Assembly: GCA_945869735.1 (NCBI GenBank)
Contig: CAMBPQ010000016.1
Span: 1-52,689 of the forward strand
Source of the DNA: Planctomicrobium piriforme
GTDB lineage: Bacteria; Planctomycetota; Planctomycetia; Pirellulales; UBA1268
Direction of reading: 5' to 3'
DNA length: 52,689 nt
A program made the translations under genes and the position numbers. Numbering within the stretch: the stretch's first letter is position 1; each line of letters opens with the position of its first letter. The notes beneath the pieces were generated by a model. The model made no database searches. It was not told the origin of the DNA and saw only the letters and a list, made by a program, of their open reading frames with translations. Shown in pieces: positions 5,603 through 36,448 of the stretch.

Positions 5603-5800
5603 CGGGAAGCCCCAAGCGCGAGCGCGGGGTATACGGGTGGCATCGAGACGGTGCCGGATTGGTTCGCCGGGAGTGACATGCTCGGCGCCCGGGATTTTGC
5701 CACAGGATGCCCCGGCTGGCCGACTGGGCGTCGCTCGTGAGTCGCAAAGATTCCCGGCTTCTGCGCGTGCCACCCCCGGCTCCTCACGATCGGGAATCGG
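5603..5800 (-). repeat. Interspersed repeat family 1, long copy A
   Basis: A full-length member of a family also found at 5831, 9146, 12257 and 27001. On the plus strand it opens with GGAAGCCCC and a GC-rich hairpin (CCCC-AA-GCGC-GA-GCGC-GGGG), then GGCATCGAGACGG, GGTTCGCCGG, GATTTTGC, CTCGTGAGTCGCAAAGATTC and finally CTCCTCACGATCGG. Assigned to the minus strand because the hairpin arm reads GGGGCTTCC there, as in most copies. It forms a direct tandem with the next copy (period 228 bp). Confidence 0.85.
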
Positions 5801-5830
5801 GTGGGGCAACCTTGGGTGTTGCTTCTCGCC

Positions 5831-5938
5831 AGGAAGCCCCAAGCGCGAGCGCGGGGTATACGGGTGGCATCGAGACGGTGCCGGATTGGTTCGCCGGGAG
5901 TGACATGCTCGGCGCCGGGGATTTTGCTACAGGATGCG
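5831..5938 (-). repeat. Interspersed repeat family 1, truncated copy B
   Basis: Second copy in the same orientation, with nearly the same sequence as the first part of copy A, cut off just after the CAGGATGC block. The 15-20 bp before each copy (GTTGCTTCTCG) also match, so this is a partial tandem duplication rather than two independent insertions. Confidence 0.85.
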
Positions 5939-6530: not shown

Positions 6531-7496
6531 CTAGCTGCGGCCGCGGAAAAACTTGCGGCCCTGGCTCTGCTGATACTGCGTCCAGCCATCCTCGGCCGTG
6601 GCCTCGTTCTGGAGGAGCTGGATCGTGCCGGCCATCTTGGCATCGAGGTGGTCGAGGTGGTGGAGGGCCACGGCCTCGAGTGTCATTGGGAGTTTTGGCG
6701 AGCCAAACTCGTACTGCCCGTGGTGGCTGGCGATCATGTGCTTCACGCGGACGGCCGCCTCGGCGTCGAACCGCTGGCCGGTGCGGGCCTCGATGGCCCG
6801 GATCTTGGTGTCGACGATCTCGAGGCCAAGGAGCACGTGCCCGAGCAACTGGCCCACGTCGGTGTAGGAGAAGCCCTGCAGGCTCTCGAGCTCGACGGTC
6901 TTGCCGATGTCGTGCACGAGCACGCCCACGAGCAGGAGGTCGCGGTTGAGAGCGGGATAGAGGGGCGCCACGCGGTCGGCGAGCCGCAGCAGGTTGACCA
7001 CGTGGTCGAGGAGACCGCCGGCGTAGGCATGATGGTGCTTCACGCCGGCGGGGGTACGGCGGAAGGCCTCCATCAGCTCTCCGTCGGTGAGAATCTCATC
7101 GGCGAGCGACTTGAGCGGCAGAGCCTGGATCGTACCGAGGATCGTGGCCAGCTCGGCCTCGAGCTTCACGACGTCGTTCTTCGAGAGAACGAGAAACTCC
7201 GACTCGTCGACCGTCCGCGGGTCGGCCCGCTCGATCGCCGAGACGATGAGCTGGAGCGACCCGGAATAAAGCTGCGTGTGCCCCTCGACTCGAACATAGT
7301 CGCCGTCTTCGAAGGCCCCGTAGTCGTCGTCGGAGGCGTTCCAGAGGCGGCCTGTGATCGTGCCGCTCTTGTCGGCCAGTTCGACCTGAAGATAGAGCTG
7401 CCCGTTGCGATTGGGCCGCAGTTGCTTGTGCGTTGCGAGGAAGAGTTGGTCGACCTGGGCTTGCGGCGGCAGTTCGGTGATCAGACGGCGTGGCAT
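6531..7496 (-). CDS. YhaM-like 3'-5' exoribonuclease (OB-fold + HD domain)
   Basis: A 321-residue protein with an N-terminal OB-fold nucleic-acid-binding domain (about 20-100) followed by an HD phosphohydrolase domain. The metal ligands are visible: HHHAYAGGLLDH, VHDIGK, GHVLLG and SHHGQYEFGS. This layout matches YhaM/CBF1-type exoribonucleases, which trim single-stranded RNA or DNA. The ATG at 7496 was preferred over a GTG at 7532 because the conserved sequence begins there. It diverges from proS across a gap of about 107 bp. Specificity is inferred from the family only. Confidence 0.82.
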   Translation of the reverse strand: MPRRLITELPPQAQVDQLFLATHKQLRPNRNGQLYLQVELADKSGTITGRLWNASDDDYGAFEDGDYVRVEGHTQLYSGSLQLIVSAIERADPRTVDESEFLVLSKNDVVKLEAELATILGTIQALPLKSLADEILTDGELMEAFRRTPAGVKHHHAYAGGLLDHVVNLLRLADRVAPLYPALNRDLLLVGVLVHDIGKTVELESLQGFSYTDVGQLLGHVLLGLEIVDTKIRAIEARTGQRFDAEAAVRVKHMIASHHGQYEFGSPKLPMTLEAVALHHLDHLDAKMAGTIQLLQNEATAEDGWTQYQQSQGRKFFRGRS

Positions 7497-7542
7497 CACG
7501 CAAGAGTCTACGGGCTGTTTCCCAGGGTTCACAAGCAGCGAC

Positions 7543-7548
7543 TACAAT
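7543..7548 (+). promoter_or_regulatory. Possible -10 element of proS
   Basis: TACAAT lies 55 bp before the proS start in the proS/yhaM divergent gap. It resembles a sigma-70 -10 box, but no good -35 element sits at the right distance, so this is tentative. Confidence 0.3.
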
Positions 7549-7603
7549 CCCGGCCCCGATCATAAGGTCCCGTTCGTCAGCACGAGCACTCACGGAGCGA
7601 GCC

Positions 7604-9118
7604 ATGCCCGACCACGCCATCAGCCCTACCCGAGCCGAGGACTATCCCGAGTGGTATCAGCAGGTCGTCAAGGCGGCCGATCTCGCGGAGCAATCACCTG
7701 TTCGCGGCTGCATGGTGATCAAGCCCCACGGCTACGCCATCTGGGAGCGGATGCAGACGATCCTCGATCGGATGTTCAAGGCGACGGGCCATCAAAACGC
7801 CTACTTCCCCCTGTTCATCCCGCTCTCGTACCTCGAGCAGGAGGCGAAGCACGTCGAGGGCTTCGCGAAGGAGTGTGCGGTGGTCACGCATCACCGGCTG
7901 GAACTCGGGCCTGACGGCAAGCTGATCCCCACGGGAAAACTTGAGGAGCCGCTCGTGGTGCGGCCGACGAGTGAGACGATCATCGGCGCGATGTATGCCA
8001 AGTGGATTCAGTCGTGGCGGGATCTGCCGATGCTGATCAACCAGTGGGCCAATGTCGTCCGCTGGGAGATGCGGCCGCGGGTCTTCCTGCGAACGTCCGA
8101 GTTTCTCTGGCAGGAGGGGCACACGGCGCATGCCACGAGCGAGGAGGCCGTCGAGGAGACGCTCCGCATGCTCGATGTCTACGCCACGTTCGCCGAACGC
8201 GATCTCGCGATGCCGGTGGTGAAGGGTCCGAAGACCGCAGCCGAACGGTTTCCCGGAGCAGTCGATACCTACTCCATCGAGGCGATGATGCAGGACGGCA
8301 AGGCCCTCCAGGCGGGCACGTCCCACTTCCTCGGTCAGAACTTCGCCCGTGGCCAGAACATCAAGTTTGCGAGCACGAGCGGGGCGGAGGAGTTTTGCTG
8401 GACGACGTCGTGGGGCGTGTCAACGCGACTCGTCGGGGCCGTGATTATGACCCACTCTGACGACGACGGCCTCGTGCTGCCGCCGCGGATCGCCCCGCAC
8501 CAGATCGTGCTGCTGCCGATCCACCGCACCGACGAGGAGAAGGCGGCGGTCATGGAGGCCTGCCGGAAGCTCGAGGCGGAGTTGTCGGCGGCGACGTTCG
8601 GCGGCGAGCCGATCCGCGCAAAGATCGACGCCCGCGACATGCGGGGCGGCGACAAGGTCTGGCAGCACATCAAGCAGGGCGTGCCGGTGCGCGTGGAGAT
8701 CGGCCCCCGTGATCTAGCGGCCGGTGCCGGGAGCATGACGCGGCGCGATCGTGGACCGAAGGAGCGGGTGGCGGTGCCGCTCGCGGAGTTTGCCTCGCGG
8801 GCTCCGACGCTGCTCGAGGAGATCCAGCAGGGGCTCTTCGAGCGGGCGAAGGCCTTCCGCGCCGAGCGGACGGTCCGGCTCGATTCAGCCGCGGATGTAC
8901 ACGTGTTCTTCGGGGCAGGGGAGGGGCCTGGCGAGGGCTCGGCTCGGGGCGGCTTCGCCCACGTACACGTCGCCGATGACCCGGCGGTGGCGGCCGCCTT
9001 CGACCCGCTGAAGGTGACCGTGCGGTGTGTGCCGATGGAGGGTAACGACGAACCGGGCACGTGCGTGGTGACCGGCAAGCCGGTGCCGCGAAGAAGCGTG
9101 CTGGCGCGGTCGTATTAG
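7604..9118 (+). CDS. proS: Prolyl-tRNA synthetase (archaeal/eukaryotic-like, type 3)
   Basis: A 504-residue class II synthetase that charges tRNA-Pro. Motif 2 is around VRWEMRPRVFLRTSEFLWQEG, TSE in RPTSETIIG is the proline-pocket signature, and the anticodon-binding domain follows near residue 300. There is no YbaK-type editing insertion of the kind found in the long bacterial form. The length and the C-terminal extension ending in Tyr mark the archaeal/eukaryotic-like (ProS3) class. The ATG at 7604 has GGAG upstream and begins the conserved N-terminus. Confidence 0.95.
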   Translation: MPDHAISPTRAEDYPEWYQQVVKAADLAEQSPVRGCMVIKPHGYAIWERMQTILDRMFKATGHQNAYFPLFIPLSYLEQEAKHVEGFAKECAVVTHHRLELGPDGKLIPTGKLEEPLVVRPTSETIIGAMYAKWIQSWRDLPMLINQWANVVRWEMRPRVFLRTSEFLWQEGHTAHATSEEAVEETLRMLDVYATFAERDLAMPVVKGPKTAAERFPGAVDTYSIEAMMQDGKALQAGTSHFLGQNFARGQNIKFASTSGAEEFCWTTSWGVSTRLVGAVIMTHSDDDGLVLPPRIAPHQIVLLPIHRTDEEKAAVMEACRKLEAELSAATFGGEPIRAKIDARDMRGGDKVWQHIKQGVPVRVEIGPRDLAAGAGSMTRRDRGPKERVAVPLAEFASRAPTLLEEIQQGLFERAKAFRAERTVRLDSAADVHVFFGAGEGPGEGSARGGFAHVHVADDPAVAAAFDPLKVTVRCVPMEGNDEPGTCVVTGKPVPRRSVLARSY

Positions 9119-9145
9119 CGCGCATGCCGATGACGTGAGGCGCGA
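9119..9145. other. Start of the proS-DUF1573 intergenic gap
   Basis: Short stretch between the proS stop and the repeat block. The whole gap (9119-9463, 345 bp) is dominated by repeat family 1; nothing else was recognised apart from the last 70 bp, which must hold the start region of the DUF1573 gene. Confidence 0.4.
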
Positions 9146-9394
9146 CGACCGCCTCGAGGCCGCCCGCATCCCCCGCGCTTGCGCTTGGGGCTTCTTGGGG
9201 AGCGGCATGGCTCACGGATGATCGAAACGCTTTCCGATCGTGAGGAGCCGGGGGTGGCACGCGCAGACGCCGGGGAATGTTTGCGACTCACGAGCGACGC
9301 CCCGTCGGCCAAACCGGCATCCTGTAGCAAAATCCCCCGGCGGCGAGCATGCCACCGCCGGCGAACCATTCCGGCACCGTCTCGAGGCCGGCCC
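9146..9394 (+). repeat. Interspersed repeat family 1, copy C (two partial units)
   Basis: Plus-oriented copy just after proS. A short remnant (about 9146-9196) carries the hairpin CCCCGCGCTTGCGCTTGGGG followed by CTTCTTG. A nearly full unit without its own hairpin follows (about 9215-9394), with GGATGATCGAAACG, CGATCGTGAGGAGCC, TTTGCGACTCACGAGCG and GCAAAATCCCCC. The order (hairpin of one unit, about 20-bp spacer, body of the next) mirrors the tandem at 5603-5938, so this block looks like a decayed tandem of two units. Confidence 0.82.
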
Positions 9395-9463
9395 GGTAGA
9401 CTGTCGCGACGGTGGCTTCGGGTGGCCGTCCGGTTCGATGTCGCGAGCAGGACTGGTGCTGTC

Positions 9464-10657
9464 ATGGCGATGAACGGTCTCGGTGCATGGCGGGTCGCTG
9501 CGGCGGCGCTGGTGGCTGGAACCGCCGTCGGCGGGGCAGGGGCCATGCTCAAGCATGCGACACCATGGCGTGTGGGCGATGTACGCGTGGTCGACGGGGA
9601 TGCGACCGGTCCTGCGCCGCGGGCCGAAACCCTGGAGACGCGGCACGAGTTTGGCACCGTCGGCGTCGGCGCCACCGGCTCCCACGAGTTCACAGTGCGG
9701 AACATCGGCGCCGCGCCGCTCACGCTTAGCCGTGGCGCCACGAGCTGCACCTGCACGGTCAGCGATTTCGAGACTGCCGAGGGAGGCTCTCCCGATGCCC
9801 GCAAGGTGGTGCCGCCTGGCGCAAGCACAAGAATCAAGGTGCAGTGGCGGGGCAAGGGTGACGGCGGCCCCTTCCGCCAGCAGGCCACAATCCTCACCGA
9901 TGACCCTCGCCGTCCGGAACTCGTGTTCGTCGTCGATGGAATGGTCGTGCCGACCTGGAAGGCATTGCCCGACGCGGTCTTTCTCCCCCGGGTCTCGGCA
10001 TCGACCGGCGACAGGGGGACGGCCGACATCTTCACCTACGGGACGTCGGCACCGAGTGTCACAGAGGTGGTTCTTGACGAGCCCCAAGTTGCCCATCTTT
10101 TCTCGCTCTCCACGGAGCCGCTCGATCCGGCCACGATCGCGGCGGAACAGGGGGCGACCGGCGGATTCCGGCTCGTGGTCGACGCAAAGCCCGGATTGCC
10201 GCTGGGGCCGCTGAAGCGGCTGGTTCGGGTGGTGTTTCAGACGCCGGACGAGGTGACGGCCGAAATTCCCCTCGCGGGAATGGTCGGGGGTGACCTTGTC
10301 ATGGCGGGCCCGGGATGGGATTCCTCTCGGCAAGCGCTCCTACTGGGAACGGTCTCCGGCAAGGCGGGCCTACGCACGAGGGTGTTTCTCACGGCCAAGG
10401 GTCCGCATCGCAAGAGCGTGCGGCCGACGGTCCGGGAGGTGGTTCCCGATTCGCTTCAGGTGACGGTCGGCGAAGGTCGGCCGATCGGCGCCGGGGGCGT
10501 CGTGCGGATACCAGTGGATATAGTTATTCCGGCGGGCAGCCGGGCAGCCAACCACCTCTGCTCCCAGCAGGGGCCGGCGGGCAGGATTGTGTTGGATACC
10601 GGCCACCCCGAGTCGCCGGAGTTTACGATCCCGGTTTGCGTCGCCGTCGGGCCCTGA
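9464..10657 (+). CDS. Secreted DUF1573-domain protein
   Basis: A 397-residue protein with an N-terminal hydrophobic segment (about 9-29), then an Ig-like DUF1573 domain. The hallmark is a stretch reading HEFGTVGVGATGSHEFTVRN followed by ATSCTCTVSDF, which contains the conserved Cys pair. The C-terminal half appears to hold further beta-sandwich domains. DUF1573 proteins are abundant and extracytoplasmic in planctomycetes, with unknown role. It lies 14 bp before the tetrahaem protein gene, so the two are probably co-transcribed and act in the same compartment. The ATG at 9464 was chosen because the upstream frame runs through repeat DNA. Confidence 0.82.
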   Translation: MAMNGLGAWRVAAAALVAGTAVGGAGAMLKHATPWRVGDVRVVDGDATGPAPRAETLETRHEFGTVGVGATGSHEFTVRNIGAAPLTLSRGATSCTCTVSDFETAEGGSPDARKVVPPGASTRIKVQWRGKGDGGPFRQQATILTDDPRRPELVFVVDGMVVPTWKALPDAVFLPRVSASTGDRGTADIFTYGTSAPSVTEVVLDEPQVAHLFSLSTEPLDPATIAAEQGATGGFRLVVDAKPGLPLGPLKRLVRVVFQTPDEVTAEIPLAGMVGGDLVMAGPGWDSSRQALLLGTVSGKAGLRTRVFLTAKGPHRKSVRPTVREVVPDSLQVTVGEGRPIGAGGVVRIPVDIVIPAGSRAANHLCSQQGPAGRIVLDTGHPESPEFTIPVCVAVGP

Positions 10658-10671
10658 ACACGAACCCACCC

Positions 10672-12240
10672 ATGAATCACGAGATCCTCCGCCGGTCGCT
10701 TCCGGCCACGTGCGTTGCAGCCGCGCTGACACTGGCCTGCCTCGCCGCCGCCCCCGACCGTGGCGTTGATGTCGCTGACGCGGTCGTGGAGACCTTTCGC
10801 CAGCGCAACGGGACGATCTTCAAGGACTGGCCCATGCCTCAGGCGGTGGTCGTGGTCACCGGCGAACTCGACGGCTACATCGAGCCCTGCGGCTGCACCG
10901 GCAAGGAGAACCAAAAGGGTGGCCTGAGTCGCCGCCAAAACTTCCTCCGCGCCCTGTCGGCCGCAGGCTGGCCATTCGCGGCGGTGGACGTCGGCAACCA
11001 GGTGAAGCGTTTTGGCCGTCAGACGGAGGCGAAGTTTCAGTCCATCGTCGATGGTCTGCGGGCCATGCAGTATGCGGCCGTGGGCTTCGGCCCGGGCGAC
11101 CTGCGGTTGCCGGCCGAGGAACTCGTCGCCGGCGTGGCGGCCGTGGGCGATCAGCCGACGCCGTTTTTAAGCGCGAACGTGGGCTTGCTCGGCCTCGATG
11201 CCAACATCACGCCAAAGTTTCGTGTTGTCGAGATCGGCGGCCTGAAGATCGGGATCACGAGCGTGCTCGGCGACAAGGAAATCGAGCGCATAAAAAACTC
11301 CGACGTCGAGTTTGTCCCGGCTGTCGAGGCTCTCGCCAAGGTCGCACCCGAACTGGTCAAGGCGGGCTGCGACCACCAGATTCTGCTCTCGTTTTCGTCA
11401 CCCGAGGAAACAAAGTCGCTGGCTGCAAAGTATCCGCAGTTCGACGTCGTGGTGACGGCGGGCGGTGCGGATGAACCGCCGCTCGAGCTTCCCTCGCTGC
11501 CCGGGGGAGCGAAGTTCGTGGAACTCGGCCACAAGGGGATGTTCGCGGTCGTGATTGGATTTTTCTCAGGCAAGGCGTCGCCGGTCCGCGGTCAGCGGGT
11601 GCCGCTCGACGCTCGGTGGGGCGAATCGAAGGACATGATCGACCTGCTCGGGACGTACCAGCAGAAACTCGAGACGCTCGGGCTGGAGGGACTCGGCCTC
11701 GTGCCGATCCGTCATCCCTCGGGCCGACGGTTCGCCGGCAGTGAGGCCTGCGCCGAGTGCCATCAGCATGCCTACGACATTTGGAAGGACACACCGCACG
11801 CGACCGCGCTGACGACGCTTGAGGAGCAGCGGCCCCGGCGCGACGGCGATCCGGAGTGCCTGTCGTGCCACGTCGTGGGCTGGGCGCCGCAACGGTTTGA
11901 GCCCTTCGAGGGAGGCTTCGCCGGCATGAGGACGACGCCGCAACTCTCTCACCAAGGCTGCGAGAATTGCCACGGTCCGGCCGCCGCCCATACCGCCGTC
12001 GAGCGGGGCGATGTCCGCGCCAGCGTGGCCGAGCGGGACCGGCTGCGTCGGGAGCTCGTGCTCACGCTCGCCACCCCCGAGGGGAAGCAGAAGGCGGTCA
12101 ACAACTGCCTGGAGTGCCACGACCTCGACAACAGCCCGCAGTTCGACTTCGACGACTATTGGCCGCAGGTCGAGCACAACGACCCGGAGCAGGGCGACGC
12201 CACGAAGGCGGCGGAACCTGTCGCCGTTGCGACACCGTAG
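10672..12240 (+). CDS. Secreted metallophosphatase-like / tetrahaem cytochrome c554-like protein
   Basis: A 522-residue exported protein with a signal peptide (about 1-26, ending AAA). Residues about 55-340 resemble the N-terminal metallophosphoesterase domain of 5'-nucleotidase/SoxB-type enzymes (EPCGCTGKENQKGGLSRR, DVGNQ, FGPGDLRL), but the usual Asp-x-His metal ligands are not evident, since TGELDGY occupies that place. Residues about 355-490 form a c554-like haem domain with four CXXCH sites at C360, C396, C430 and C479. It probably carries electrons in the periplasm; the substrate is unknown. The tail is acidic. It lies 14 bp after the DUF1573 gene. Confidence 0.78.
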   Translation: MNHEILRRSLPATCVAAALTLACLAAAPDRGVDVADAVVETFRQRNGTIFKDWPMPQAVVVVTGELDGYIEPCGCTGKENQKGGLSRRQNFLRALSAAGWPFAAVDVGNQVKRFGRQTEAKFQSIVDGLRAMQYAAVGFGPGDLRLPAEELVAGVAAVGDQPTPFLSANVGLLGLDANITPKFRVVEIGGLKIGITSVLGDKEIERIKNSDVEFVPAVEALAKVAPELVKAGCDHQILLSFSSPEETKSLAAKYPQFDVVVTAGGADEPPLELPSLPGGAKFVELGHKGMFAVVIGFFSGKASPVRGQRVPLDARWGESKDMIDLLGTYQQKLETLGLEGLGLVPIRHPSGRRFAGSEACAECHQHAYDIWKDTPHATALTTLEEQRPRRDGDPECLSCHVVGWAPQRFEPFEGGFAGMRTTPQLSHQGCENCHGPAAAHTAVERGDVRASVAERDRLRRELVLTLATPEGKQKAVNNCLECHDLDNSPQFDFDDYWPQVEHNDPEQGDATKAAEPVAVATP

Positions 12241-12256: not shown

Positions 12257-12465
12257 CGTCTTCCCCGCGCTCGCGCTTGGGGCTTCCTGAAACGGAGGCG
12301 TTGCCGTCCGGATGATCGAAACGATTCCTGATCGTGAGGAGCAGGGGGTGGCACCCGCAGACGCCGGGGAATCTTTGCGACTCACGAGCAACGCCCCGAC
12401 GGCCAAGCGAGCATCCTGGAGCAAAATCCCCCGGCGCCGAGCAGGTCACCGCCGGCGAACCAGCG
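12257..12465 (+). repeat. Interspersed repeat family 1, copy D
   Basis: Begins 17 bp after the stop of the tetrahaem gene and in its orientation. The hairpin CCCCGCGCTCGCGCTTGGGG plus CTTCCTGA (12257-12290) is followed after a spacer by a nearly complete body (12308-12465) with GGATGATCGAAACG, TTTGCGACTCACGAGC and GGAGCAAAATCCCCC. It fills most of the 284-bp gap to yebC, whose stop faces it. Confidence 0.85.
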
Positions 12466-26891: not shown

Positions 26892-27000
26892 GCTGTTCAC
26901 CGGTTCACATCGTAGACGATTCGAAGAGAACGGTGGGAGGCCGCCGCGGTTCGGCCTTGATCTGCGAACAAGTTCCCCGATCGGGAGCGTGTGCCGCTCT

Positions 27001-27218
27001 TCAGGAAGCCCCAAGCGCGAGCGCGGGGAATGCGGGTGGCATTGAGACGATGCCGGAATGGTTCGCCGGCGGTGACATGCTCGCCCCCGGGGGATTTTGC
27101 TCCAGGATGCCCGCTTGGCCGACGGGGCGGTGCTCGTGAGTCGCAAAGATTCCCCGGCGTCTGCGCGTGCCTCCGACCGGCTCCTCACGATCGGAGATCG
27201 TTTCGATTATCCGTGCGG
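27001..27218 (-). repeat. Interspersed repeat family 1, long copy E
   Basis: The most complete single unit. Plus strand: GGAAGCCCC hairpin at 27003, then GGCATTGAGACG, GGTTCGCCGGCGGTGACATG, GGGGGATTTTGCTCCAGG, GTGAGTCGCAAAGATTCCCC, CTCCTCACGATCGGAGATCG and TTTCGATTATCCGTGCGG. An internal stem (CCGGCGG...CGCCGGG type) can form in the middle. It begins 15 bp after the ruvA stop and reads in ruvA orientation, hairpin last. The flanking 26892-27000 holds only the presumed ruvB promoter. Confidence 0.88.
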
Positions 27219-27232
27219 CTTGCCGTCCGTCA

Positions 27233-33308: not shown

Positions 33309-34865
33309 ATGTCGCGGACGGTCAACATCATCGGAGCCGGGCCAGGTGGATTGGCGACGGCCATGCTGCTGGCTCAGGCCGGAGTGCGGGTGCGGGTGCT
33401 CGAGCGGCTTCCTGTTCCCGGCGGCCGGACCAGCACGATCTCCACTCCCGAGGGCTTCAAGTTCGATCTGGGACCCACGTTCTTTCTCTATCCGCGGGTG
33501 CTCGACGAGATCTTCGCAAGCTGCGGCCGCGACCTCCGGCAGGAGGTTGAGATGGTCCGGCTCGACCCGCAATACCGCCTGATCTTCGGGTCTGGAGGCG
33601 AAATCTTCGCCACGCCGAACGTGGCCCGGATGGAGGCGGAGGTGTCACGGCTTTCGCCAGCCGACCGTGGCTCCTTCACGCGATTCATGGAGAGCACGCG
33701 GGCGAAGTTCGAGCGGTTCGCACCGTTTCTCGAGCAGCCGTTCCAGAGTTGGCGGGATCTCGCCAAACCCGACCTGCTCAAGCTCATGCCGATGCTCAAG
33801 CCGTGGCGGAGTCTCGACAGAGAGCTCGGCACCTTCTTCTCCGACGAGCGGATTCGGCTGGCATTCACGTTTCAGTCAAAGTATCTGGGCATGTCGCCGT
33901 TCAAATGTCCGAGCCTGTTCTCGATCCTCTCCTTCCTCGAATACGAGCACGGCGTCTTCCACCCAATCGGCGGCTGCGGCGCCGTCTCGACCGCGATGGC
34001 GAGGATCGCCACCGACATGGGCGTCGACATCCGCTACGAGGAACCGGTCGAGTCGCTCGAGTTCGCGGGCAAGCGGATCACGGCGTTGAAGACGTCACGG
34101 GGCACGTACGAGGCCGATGCCACGGTGGTCAACGCCGACTTCGCCCGGACGATGACGCGGCTCGTGCCCGACCGCATCCGCCGCAACTGGAACGATCGGA
34201 AGATTGCCTCGCGGCGGTTTTCGTGCTCGACGTTCATGCTCTACCTCGGCATCGAGGGCTGCTATGACGACGTCGCCCACCACAACATCTATCTCTCTGA
34301 AGACTACCGCAACAATCTCGCCGACATCGAGCATCGGCATCGGCTCAGCCGCGACCCGTCGATGTACGTCCAAAATGCCTGCGTGACCGATCCCACGCTC
34401 GCACCCCGCGGGATGAGCACGCTGTATCTGCTCATCCCGGTCACCCATCGGCACCCCAACGTCGACTGGCGGCGGGAGGCGGCGGGCTACCGCGAGGTAG
34501 CGCTCGACCAGATGGAGCGGATCGGGATCCGCGGCGTCCGCGACCGCATTCGCTACGAGAAGATGCTCACGCCCGACGACTGGCAGGACGACTACGAGAT
34601 TTACAGGGGCGCGACCTTCAACCTAGCGCACGACCTCGGCCAAATGCTGCACATGCGGCCGCACAACCGGTTCGAGGATGTCGACGGGATGTACCTCGTG
34701 GGGGGCGGCACGCACCCAGGGAGCGGCTTGCCTGTGATCTATTCCTCGGCGCGGATCACCTCCAGGCTGCTGCTCGGGGATTTGGGGCTCGACGGCTTGG
34801 CCGCGCGTCCGGGCCGGTCGAAGAAGGGCTCCGGCGGAGTGAAGGAGAAGGCGGGCGCCTTCTGA
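33309..34865 (+). CDS. Phytoene/squalene desaturase-family FAD enzyme (crtN-like)
   Basis: A 518-residue CrtI/CrtN-family flavoprotein. The N-terminal FAD-binding GAGPGGLATAMLLAQ is followed by GGRTSTI and a substrate domain; the C-terminus has the family motif DGMYLVGGGTHPGSGLPV. A 4,4'-diapophytoene or dehydrosqualene desaturase-type reaction is likely, given the neighbours: a second paralogue, a PlsC-like acyltransferase and a CrtQ-like glycosyltransferase, the set known from C30 (staphyloxanthin-like) carotenoid pathways. First gene after the promoter at 33221. Which of the two paralogues is CrtN and which CrtP is not certain. Confidence 0.75.
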   Translation: MSRTVNIIGAGPGGLATAMLLAQAGVRVRVLERLPVPGGRTSTISTPEGFKFDLGPTFFLYPRVLDEIFASCGRDLRQEVEMVRLDPQYRLIFGSGGEIFATPNVARMEAEVSRLSPADRGSFTRFMESTRAKFERFAPFLEQPFQSWRDLAKPDLLKLMPMLKPWRSLDRELGTFFSDERIRLAFTFQSKYLGMSPFKCPSLFSILSFLEYEHGVFHPIGGCGAVSTAMARIATDMGVDIRYEEPVESLEFAGKRITALKTSRGTYEADATVVNADFARTMTRLVPDRIRRNWNDRKIASRRFSCSTFMLYLGIEGCYDDVAHHNIYLSEDYRNNLADIEHRHRLSRDPSMYVQNACVTDPTLAPRGMSTLYLLIPVTHRHPNVDWRREAAGYREVALDQMERIGIRGVRDRIRYEKMLTPDDWQDDYEIYRGATFNLAHDLGQMLHMRPHNRFEDVDGMYLVGGGTHPGSGLPVIYSSARITSRLLLGDLGLDGLAARPGRSKKGSGGVKEKAGAF

Positions 34866-34891: not shown

Positions 34892-36448
34892 ATGACCAAG
34901 CACACGACGAACAACGACCGAGTGGTGGTGATCGGGGCCGGCCTCGGCGGCCTCGCGGCGGCCTGCACGCTCGCGGCCCGCGGCTACGCCGTCACGCTCT
35001 GCGACAAGAATCCGTGGGTGGGTGGGAAGGCCGCCGTGCTCAGCGAGGGCGGCTTCCGCTTCGACATGGGGCCCACGATCCTGACGATCCCCCGAGTGCT
35101 CAAGCGGATCTACGCCGAGGCGGGCCGCGACATGGAGCAGTATCTGGATCTGGTGCCGCTTGATCCGCAGTGGCGAAGCTTCTTCGAAGACGGCACCACG
35201 CTCGATCTCTTCGCCGACGTCGGGAAGATGCGGGCGACGCTCGACGACTATGCTCCCGGCTCGGGTTCCGGCGACGGCTACGCGCGGTTCATGGACCTCG
35301 CCCAGCGGCTCCACCGTCTCTCCAATGAGTTCTTCTTCTGGCGCAGCGTCGGCGGCATGAAGGACATGATTAACGTTCGCAAGAGCCTGTCTGTCTCTTT
35401 CATCAAGGAGCTGATCGGCATGCGACCGGGGCACAGCGTCGCCGGCACGGTGCGGTCATACGTGCCCGACGAGCGGGCAGCGCAGATGCTCGACCACTTC
35501 ACGCAGTACGTGGGCAGCGCTCCCGACGAGTCGCCCGCCGTGCTCTGCAGCATCGCCCACATGCAGTCGAACGACGGCGTCTGGTATCCGCGGGGTGGCA
35601 CGGGGGCGGTGCCGCGGGCCCTCGCCAGCCTGGCCGTCGACCTCGGCGTGGAAATTCGCACCAACACTCCCATCCGCCGGATCATCGTCGAGGGGGGCCG
35701 CGTCCGCGGCGTCGAGACGGCGGCTGGCGAGACGATTACCGCCGGTGTGGTCGTGAGCAACTCCGACAGCGTGCGGACCCACCGCGAACTCGTCGATGGG
35801 CAGCCACAGCGGAAGTTTCTCGGCCGCCGTAAGTACGAGCCGGCCTGCTCGGGAGTAGTGCTCTACCTCGGCCTTGACAGACGGTATGAGCAACTCATCC
35901 ACCACAACTTCGTGTTCTCGCAGGACCCGCACGAGGAGTTTGAGACGATCTACCGCCGCGGTGAACCGGCCCCTGATCCCACCTGCTACGTCTGCGCTCC
36001 GGCCGTCACCGAGCCGGAGGTGGCGATCCCCGGAGGCGAGGCGCTCTACGTGCTCGTCCACACGCCCTACCTACGGCCGCACCACGACTGGAAGAAGATG
36101 TTTCCGGAGTATCGCAACACGATCATCCGGAAACTGGAGCGGACGGCCGGCCTGAAGGATCTCGAGCGGCACATCGTGATGGAGCGGGCGCTGACGCCCC
36201 AGGACATCAACGACCGCTATCACGTGCTCGACGGGGCGATCTACGGCCTCGCGAGCCATGGCAAGTATCTTGGTGCCTTCAAGCCGGCGAATCGGTCGCC
36301 CGACATCGACGGGCTCTATCTCGCCGGTGGCTCCGCTCATCCCGGGCCCGGGATGCCCATGGTGTTGATGTCGGGCTGGATCGCGGCCGACTGCGTTGAC
36401 CAAGACAAGCTCGTCGCGCAGACGGGGCCCGCTGTGTGCGCTGTCTGA
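34892..36448 (+). CDS. Second phytoene desaturase-family FAD enzyme (crtP/crtN-like)
   Basis: A 518-residue paralogue 26 bp downstream. VVIGAGLGGLAAACTLAARG is its FAD loop, GGKAAVL and FDMGPTILT follow, and the end reads DGLYLAGGSAHPGPGMPMVL. In C30 carotenoid pathways the second enzyme of this family (CrtP) oxidises the terminal methyl group; this gene may have that role or share desaturation. No squalene or dehydrosqualene synthase (hpnCDE/crtM) is in the window, so the precursor must come from elsewhere. Confidence 0.75.
   Translation: MTKHTTNNDRVVVIGAGLGGLAAACTLAARGYAVTLCDKNPWVGGKAAVLSEGGFRFDMGPTILTIPRVLKRIYAEAGRDMEQYLDLVPLDPQWRSFFEDGTTLDLFADVGKMRATLDDYAPGSGSGDGYARFMDLAQRLHRLSNEFFFWRSVGGMKDMINVRKSLSVSFIKELIGMRPGHSVAGTVRSYVPDERAAQMLDHFTQYVGSAPDESPAVLCSIAHMQSNDGVWYPRGGTGAVPRALASLAVDLGVEIRTNTPIRRIIVEGGRVRGVETAAGETITAGVVVSNSDSVRTHRELVDGQPQRKFLGRRKYEPACSGVVLYLGLDRRYEQLIHHNFVFSQDPHEEFETIYRRGEPAPDPTCYVCAPAVTEPEVAIPGGEALYVLVHTPYLRPHHDWKKMFPEYRNTIIRKLERTAGLKDLERHIVMERALTPQDINDRYHVLDGAIYGLASHGKYLGAFKPANRSPDIDGLYLAGGSAHPGPGMPMVLMSGWIAADCVDQDKLVAQTGPAVCAV

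Follow-up and report, generated by a model that had tools for sequence, protein, structure and literature searches.

A dead 5'-nucleotidase fold with a CxC pair and a four-haem-motif tail, encoded beside a DUF1573 protein in Planctomicrobium piriforme: a possible periplasmic thiol/disulfide-to-haem oxidoreductase

What is the role of a protein that has the fold of a 5'-nucleotidase, none of its metal ligands, and a cytochrome-like tail? The question is raised by two genes in contig CAMBPQ010000016.1 of Planctomicrobium piriforme (assembly GCA_945869735.1), of which we analyzed a stretch of 52,689 nucleotides, called the window here. P0001 (9464-10657, 397 amino acids) and P0002 (10672-12240, 522 amino acids) are both on the + strand, as are all the features of these two proteins given below. 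Their coordinates agree with the 14-bp gap given in the original prediction, which was made from the DNA letters alone and suggested that the two might form an uncharacterised periplasmic redox module. As a whole, P0002 joins a dead 5'-nucleotidase fold with a CxC motif to a c554-like tail with four haem motifs, and it is present as a single copy in the window's genome (G000). This genome has 12 matches to PSCyt2 (PF07583) above the cutoff, whereas 14 control genomes have none, in line with a place in the Planctomycetota. The N termini of both proteins are hydrophobic, with predicted helices at residues 12 to 25 in P0002 and 8 to 31 in P0001, which suggests that both are exported to the periplasm. 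Homologs of P0002 were found in 243 of the 248 genomes of the class (completeness of at least 95%, E value of at most 1e-40) and in 59 of the 60 relatives listed; one of the five class-level misses, G028, carries a fragment matching residues 409 to 518. No tblastn match to P0002 was found in the plasmid collection.

An AlphaFold2 model of P0002 (predicted local distance difference test score [pLDDT] of 90.3, predicted template modeling score [pTM] of 0.88) was compared with known structures by VIA. The model has the 5'-nucleotidase fold, with a Z score of 28.7 to 2z1a (root mean square deviation of 2.8, 279 residues aligned), 26.9 to UshA (1ush), and 27.0 to SoxB (2wdc). These alignments span mostly residues 54 to 410, and the catalytic-domain fold was placed at residues ~54 to 340 (10831-11691). 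The Pfam scan of P0002 at an E value of at most 1 listed neither Metallophos nor any 5'-nucleotidase family. We then read eight positions, which we take to be the metal ligands, off aligned ordinary nucleotidases, using an alignment of 147 sequences that holds the window protein, 143 relatives bearing CxC or CxU (U, selenocysteine [Sec]) or haem motifs, and three ordinary nucleotidases of the phylum. The ordinary nucleotidases keep 7, 8, and 8 of the eight ligands. P0002 has E65, D67, N109, P141, G142, F241, G264, and D267 at these positions and thus keeps none, which bears out the predicted absence of the metal pair. Homologs with the full set had been named beforehand as the sign of an ordinary nucleotidase fusion; none of the 144 sequences from the window and its relatives keeps all eight, the best keeping five. 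Zero, one, two, and three ligands are kept in 22, 14, 4, and 1 of the 41 order-level sequences, and zero to five ligands are kept in 10, 23, 8, 7, 10, and 1 of the 59 Sec sequences, respectively. The order-level loci comprise the window, all 23 genomes that belong to its order but to another family, and 17 of the 36 relatives from its genus or family; the Sec sequences are those of the 75 Sec loci described below whose reading was long enough to enter the alignment. Judging from this alignment, P0002 has lost the two-metal hydrolytic center of the 5'-nucleotidase fold.

While the metal ligands decay, a cysteine pair is kept, which we count in favor of a redox role. The pair, C73-G-C75 within EPCGC (10888-10896, codons TGC GGC TGC), had been pointed out in the original prediction and is our candidate redox center. 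Both cysteines are kept without exception when P0002 is aligned with 46 of the 64 listed homologs (47 sequences, identity down to 25%); together with the equally invariant CXXCH motifs of the tail, this is more than chance. In the larger alignment, both positions are occupied by cysteine or Sec in 143 of the 144 sequences, of which the 59 Sec sequences carry them by construction of the search pattern and the 41 order-level sequences come from motif-free homology searches, with no locus discarded for motif loss; the exception, L136, begins at a contig end.

The second cysteine of the pair is exchanged for Sec in many relatives. Searching a genome collection with the pattern E-P-C-G-TGA-5 residues-G-G gave at least 117 stretches, and 80 loci (L141 to L220) were analyzed. 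In 75 of these pattern-found loci listed, the TGA lies at the C75 position in a frame matching the P0002 profile; their sources include Deltaproteobacteria, Krumholzibacteria, Eisenbacteria, Neomarinimicrobiota, Acidobacteria, Armatimonadetes, and Calditrichaeota. The remaining loci (L148, L149, L157, L163, and L170) were rejected as chance matches, their TGA frame not matching the profile. Found without the pattern, nine loci from the window's own phylum (L101 to L109) all have two tandem copies, one reading CGU and the other CGC, and both copies have four haem motifs. SelB scored above its cutoff in 14 of 15 genomes of the families to which these loci belong, and tRNA-Sec was found in all 12 tested (62.9 to 69.7 bits). 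The RNA following the TGA shows a modest gain in folding stability over the same stretch in Cys homologs: over 51 nucleotides, the mean folding z is −0.82 (n = 75) versus −0.19 (n = 61) (Mann-Whitney P = 0.0003), with z below −1 in 33 of 75 Sec genes versus 17 of 61 Cys homologs. P0002 itself was ruled out as a selenoprotein: its codons are TGC, and in G000 (95% complete) the best SelB match has 165.1 bits against a cutoff of 242.25 and the best tRNA-Sec-like match has 44.7, under the threshold of 47. SelB was above the cutoff in none of the 20 genomes searched from the window's family (G000 included). It was found in 10 of 22 other genomes of the order, and still every aligned order-level sequence has Cys. 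In the tree, the window and its order form a clade with support of 1.0, as they do together with L121 to L129; adding L110 to L113, L118 to L120, and L133 gives a support of 0.758 with one extra sequence, and in the rest of the tree Sec forms are mixed with Cys forms. The tree was midpoint rooted because the ordinary nucleotidases do not form one group, and it does not give the direction of the Cys/Sec change.

The C-terminal part of P0002 matches Pfam Cytochrome_C554 with 51.4 bits (gathering score, 20.8), as expected from the original prediction, and all four CXXCH motifs were located: CAECH (C360-H364, 11749-11763), CLSCH (C396-H400, 11857-11871), CENCH (C430-H434, 11959-11973), and CLECH (C479-H483, 12106-12120), each invariant in the 47-sequence alignment. 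Three further histidines are invariant there and are candidate distal haem ligands, namely, H376 (11797-11799), H440 (11989-11991), and H502 (12175-12177). Among the 59 Sec sequences, the first of these is H in 53, a gap in 5, and Q in 1, the second is H in 50, a gap in 6, and another residue in 3, and the third is H in 28, C in 14, a gap in 14, and another residue in 3. The Cys at the H502 position is found in all nine tandem Sec, all nine tandem Cys, and all four NF sequences, so that His is exchanged for Cys between sister groups, a swap to be expected at what is probably an axial haem ligand. With three conserved candidates for four haems, one haem is possibly open; cytochrome c554 has one five-coordinate haem. 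The c-type cytochrome character of P0002 is seen in its CXXCH motifs and conserved histidines, which suggest that the tail is loaded with haem. Most Sec genes share this tail: 49 of the 75 run in frame to four CXXCH motifs, 14 are cut by the locus end, 2 stop after one or two motifs, and 10 stop without any. Among the last group, L190 has four motifs in another frame, and L195 and L209 stop near the locus end.

The closest described family is NF041198, UshA_like_PCGU or "UshA-like (seleno)protein" (CxU), which over 519 model positions combines a haem tail with a dead nucleotidase part that carries PCG[C/U]. P0002 scores 176.8 bits (E value of 6.5e-52) against it, under the cutoff of 275, and differs in having Cys in place of Sec and in being paired with DUF1573. 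The cutoff is likewise not reached by L043 (201.9), L124 (218), L112 (259.2), or the fusion proteins L139 (240.6) and L140 (242); it is reached by L115 (276.7 bits), and the Sec relative L196 scores 600 bits. P0002 has the motif layout of the family, PCG[C/U] with GG after it and a C-terminal part bearing four haem motifs, its EPCGC being the family motif with Cys in the place of Sec. We also observed a further subfamily of the phylum nearer to NF041198 (L114 to L117), with EPCGC or EPCAC and four haem motifs; no DUF1573 neighbor was found in these four loci. The tail resembles Nitrosomonas cytochrome c554 (1bvb) in that the first three haem motifs and one histidine align (phmmer E value of 1e-7), but in P0002 it is the C-terminal part of a larger protein, and the c554 equivalog NF043010 gives only 35.6 bits against a cutoff of 400. 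UshA and CD73 share the catalytic-domain fold (Z of 27 to 29), and P0002 differs from them at all eight ligand positions. SoxB is a nucleotidase-fold protein that acts on a cysteine of its partner, the Ig (immunoglobulin)-fold carrier SoxYZ. Its fold is also close (Z of ~27), but the hydrolytic metal site is missing in P0002; SoxB TIGR04486 (cutoff, 550) was not among the NCBIfam matches of P0002 at an E value of at most 1, and the relatives tested had at most 60.3 bits.

P0001 is a DUF1573 protein by Pfam (51.8 bits; gathering score, 26.1). It has an N-terminal hydrophobic helix and three β-sandwich, Ig-like domains (9464-10657; AlphaFold2 pLDDT of 91.8 and pTM of 0.75), and its Foldseek neighbors are ciliary central-apparatus chains and other Ig-type proteins. 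It also has a CxC, C95-T-C97 (9746-9754), at the place where Sec forms elsewhere have UGC. The corresponding family, NF041425 OS_HP2/Pfam DUF1573 (PF07610), is likewise an Ig-like domain with CxC, but P0001 has three such domains plus the N-terminal helix and scores 51 bits, under the cutoff of 100. That Sec forms of this family read UGC is stated in a table of PMC13188914. We found UGC forms in L258, L259, and L260; in the tandem-bearing genomes G190 and G175, they lie on different contigs from the UshA-like genes. In L258 of G190 (~7237-9600, reverse-strand reading), neighboring DUF1573 genes have one UGC and one CGC, a pair that parallels the Sec/Cys tandem of UshA-like genes also present in G190. 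In G000, DUF1573 is matched twice, by P0001 and at G000:C4:9656-9946 (L264, with SCGCT). The alignment of DUF1573 partners comprises 43 of the 50 listed.

Conserved synteny, proposed as a check in the original prediction, holds for the pair: a DUF1573 gene lies immediately upstream of the P0002 homolog in 35 of the 41 order-level loci. Two more partners were seen by tblastn (L002 and L025), the contig of L035 ends 0.55 kb upstream, and no DUF1573 partner was recognized in L038, L048, and L056. The CxC is found in 29 of the 35 partners, one of the six exceptions being truncated by a contig end. Elsewhere in the phylum, DUF1573 stands beside the homolog in seven of seven (L110 to L113 and L118 to L120) and eight of nine loci (L121 to L129), as well as in L130, from the window's order, in L137, and, in reversed order, in L133. 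Two genomes from distant parts of the phylum encode DUF1573 and a P0002-like protein as one fused chain (L139, 1,048 amino acids; L140, 1,017 amino acids). Its own CxC and the two fusions make DUF1573 a likely partner in the phylum.

Taken together, the dead hydrolase fold, the invariant CxC replaceable by CxU, and the tetrahaem tail of most members lead us to propose, tentatively and at somewhat less than even confidence, that P0002 is a periplasmic thiol/disulfide-to-haem oxidoreductase whose partner in the window's phylum is DUF1573. The region of the nucleotidase cleft would be reused to hold a redox-active C73/C75 pair, forming a selenenylsulfide in the Sec relatives. Presumably near a haem, the pair would give electrons to the tetrahaem tail or take them from it and would thereby be connected to the respiratory pool of c-type cytochromes. 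The DUF1573 protein would be anchored through its N-terminal helix; with its own CxC on an Ig-like domain, it would be the docking partner and, in most species of the phylum, the thiol-exchange partner. The redox module of the original prediction is thus well supported by the invariant CxC, the Cys/Sec exchange at C75, the haem motifs, the pairing, and the two fusions, while its suggested role in sulfur or nitrogen metabolism found no direct support, there being no such gene among the few neighbors identified. A bolder form of the proposal, which we consider unlikely, is a two-component periplasmic thiol-redox relay in which DUF1573 acts as an Ig-like carrier with CxC or UxC and the dead nucleotidase with CxC or CxU acts as a tetrahaem oxidoreductase. 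Such a relay would couple the thiols of proteins or small molecules to the cytochrome pool directly, through two Cys-or-Sec sites, would work like SoxYZ-SoxB with electron transfer replacing hydrolysis, would differ in mechanism from DsbA/DsbB and CcdA, and would extend beyond the phylum through stand-alone Sec versions.

The label "uncharacterised" stands for function but not for family, as both proteins fall in or near named selenoprotein-containing families. Both families have been published together with their CxU/UxC motifs (PMC2398784, PMC9312934, and PMC13188914), listed in the accessible parts of these papers by name and motif only, and the operon section of PMC13188914 does not mention a DUF1573/UshA-like pairing. 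No biochemistry, phenotype, function, or pairing was found for either family in our searches of the open-licence literature, although P0002 represents a gene present in nearly all sampled genomes of its class, and Sec forms of it occur across many phyla. Candidates for testing, both residues and a partner, follow from the exchange of Cys and Sec at a single position, the degenerate metal site, and the two fusions. If true, our proposal would add a route that links periplasmic thiol chemistry to haem and would offer the first functional hypothesis for two selenoprotein families.

Several observations weigh against the proposal. The haem tail appears separable from the nucleotidase part, as about 7 of the 75 Sec genes look haemless: L164, L180, L191, L202, L203, L214, and L215 have no CXXCH in the gene or in the next 1.5 kb. 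These forms led us to lower our confidence in a thiol/disulfide-haem function slightly and to raise the first two alternatives below by a smaller step each. The CxC could bind metal rather than cycle, and five full-length order-level DUF1573 partners lack a CxC. The pairing is also uneven. By coordinates, the two genes are adjacent in nine of ten genomes of family f22 and the single genome of f83 but in only 2 of 12 genomes of f82 and not in the single genome of f84, counts in which the DUF1573 model may miss divergent partners. No DUF1573 was found beside the nine tandem or the four NF loci, and near the Sec genes it was recognized for only 1 of 75 (L215), in a search with a model from the window's order and loci cut at 8 kb that may have missed some. 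No DUF1573 match was found in six of nine genomes behind Sec loci. We therefore rejected DUF1573 as an obligatory partner of the whole family, most Sec contexts seen being without it. In L215 (Armatimonadetes), where the Sec gene is one of the haemless ones, the DUF1573 gene lies ~2.2 kb upstream.

Some of these observations would suit a small-molecule redox enzyme, in which CxC/CxU is the catalytic nucleophile for peroxide, NO, or an oxyanion of S, N, or Se, possibly with a haem without a conserved distal ligand; the tail would only supply electrons and DUF1573 would only dock. Sec is usually catalytic, and the three distal-ligand candidates for four haems, the haemless Sec forms, and the missing DUF1573 in most Sec contexts all favor such an enzyme. 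However, no metabolic gene for such a substrate is among the neighbors identified, the neighbors differ between families while the gene stays, and its near class-wide presence is easier to reconcile with a general role than with a niche substrate, so that we regard this explanation as somewhat unlikely.

We give distinctly less credence to a metal or haem-ligand site, in which CxC/CxU would be a soft-metal site or a thiolate/selenolate haem ligand for metal sensing, storage, or reduction. Other families use CxC pairs to bind soft metals, the His or Cys at the H502 position makes thiolate haem ligation plausible in this family, and in L101 to L109 the tandem copies follow genes for a sigma-70-type factor and a zf-HC2 protein, a stress-response layout. 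L104 also has a TraT-like gene there. A mere ligand, however, does not account for the strict conservation of both C73 and C75, and no metal transporter or sensor is among the neighbors identified.

The gene neighborhood raises a further explanation, that the pair serves exopolysaccharide assembly and the haem part is secondary. Upstream on the same strand, the 23 order-level loci outside the window's family have genes of the types DUF4416 (12 loci), Glycos_transf_4 (9 loci), and Wzy_C (10 loci), identities that were taken from one locus, L043, and homologs of the latter two are upstream in 8 of the 10 loci L121 to L130. We consider this very improbable, as the window's family (f1) has no such genes in this position, and L110 to L113 and L118 to L120 lack them beside the pair, having GalT-, glycogen-synthase-, and GlgC/GlgB-like genes (by eye) there. 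An ordinary nucleotidase fused to a cytochrome has the clear common fold in its favor, but the ligand table leaves it a negligible probability, and we rejected it for the sampled set.

No other neighbor is kept as widely as the pair in the 41 loci, the next best being found in 24. As neighbors vary by family and the pairing is kept more widely, the pair itself points to being the unit. Sec genes sit among changing neighbors, several of them housekeeping by eye, and no Sox gene is among the neighbors identified. In the window, the pair is flanked by a prolyl-tRNA-synthetase-like open reading frame (ORF) and an opposite-strand YebC-like ORF (both by eye).

A dispersed intergenic repeat of ~220 bp lies on both sides of the pair (window positions 9170-9410 and 12263-12462), with further copies on the reverse strand of the window at 5639-5937 and 26992-27225. 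The genome has at least ~40 long copies with 80 to 95% identity, as counted from the 40 candidates scored of 371 at first look. Farther along the window, two adjacent ORFs of 518 amino acids (33309-34865 and 34892-36448) share 31% identity over 481 amino acids; both begin with a dinucleotide-binding motif and are phytoene-desaturase-like by eye.

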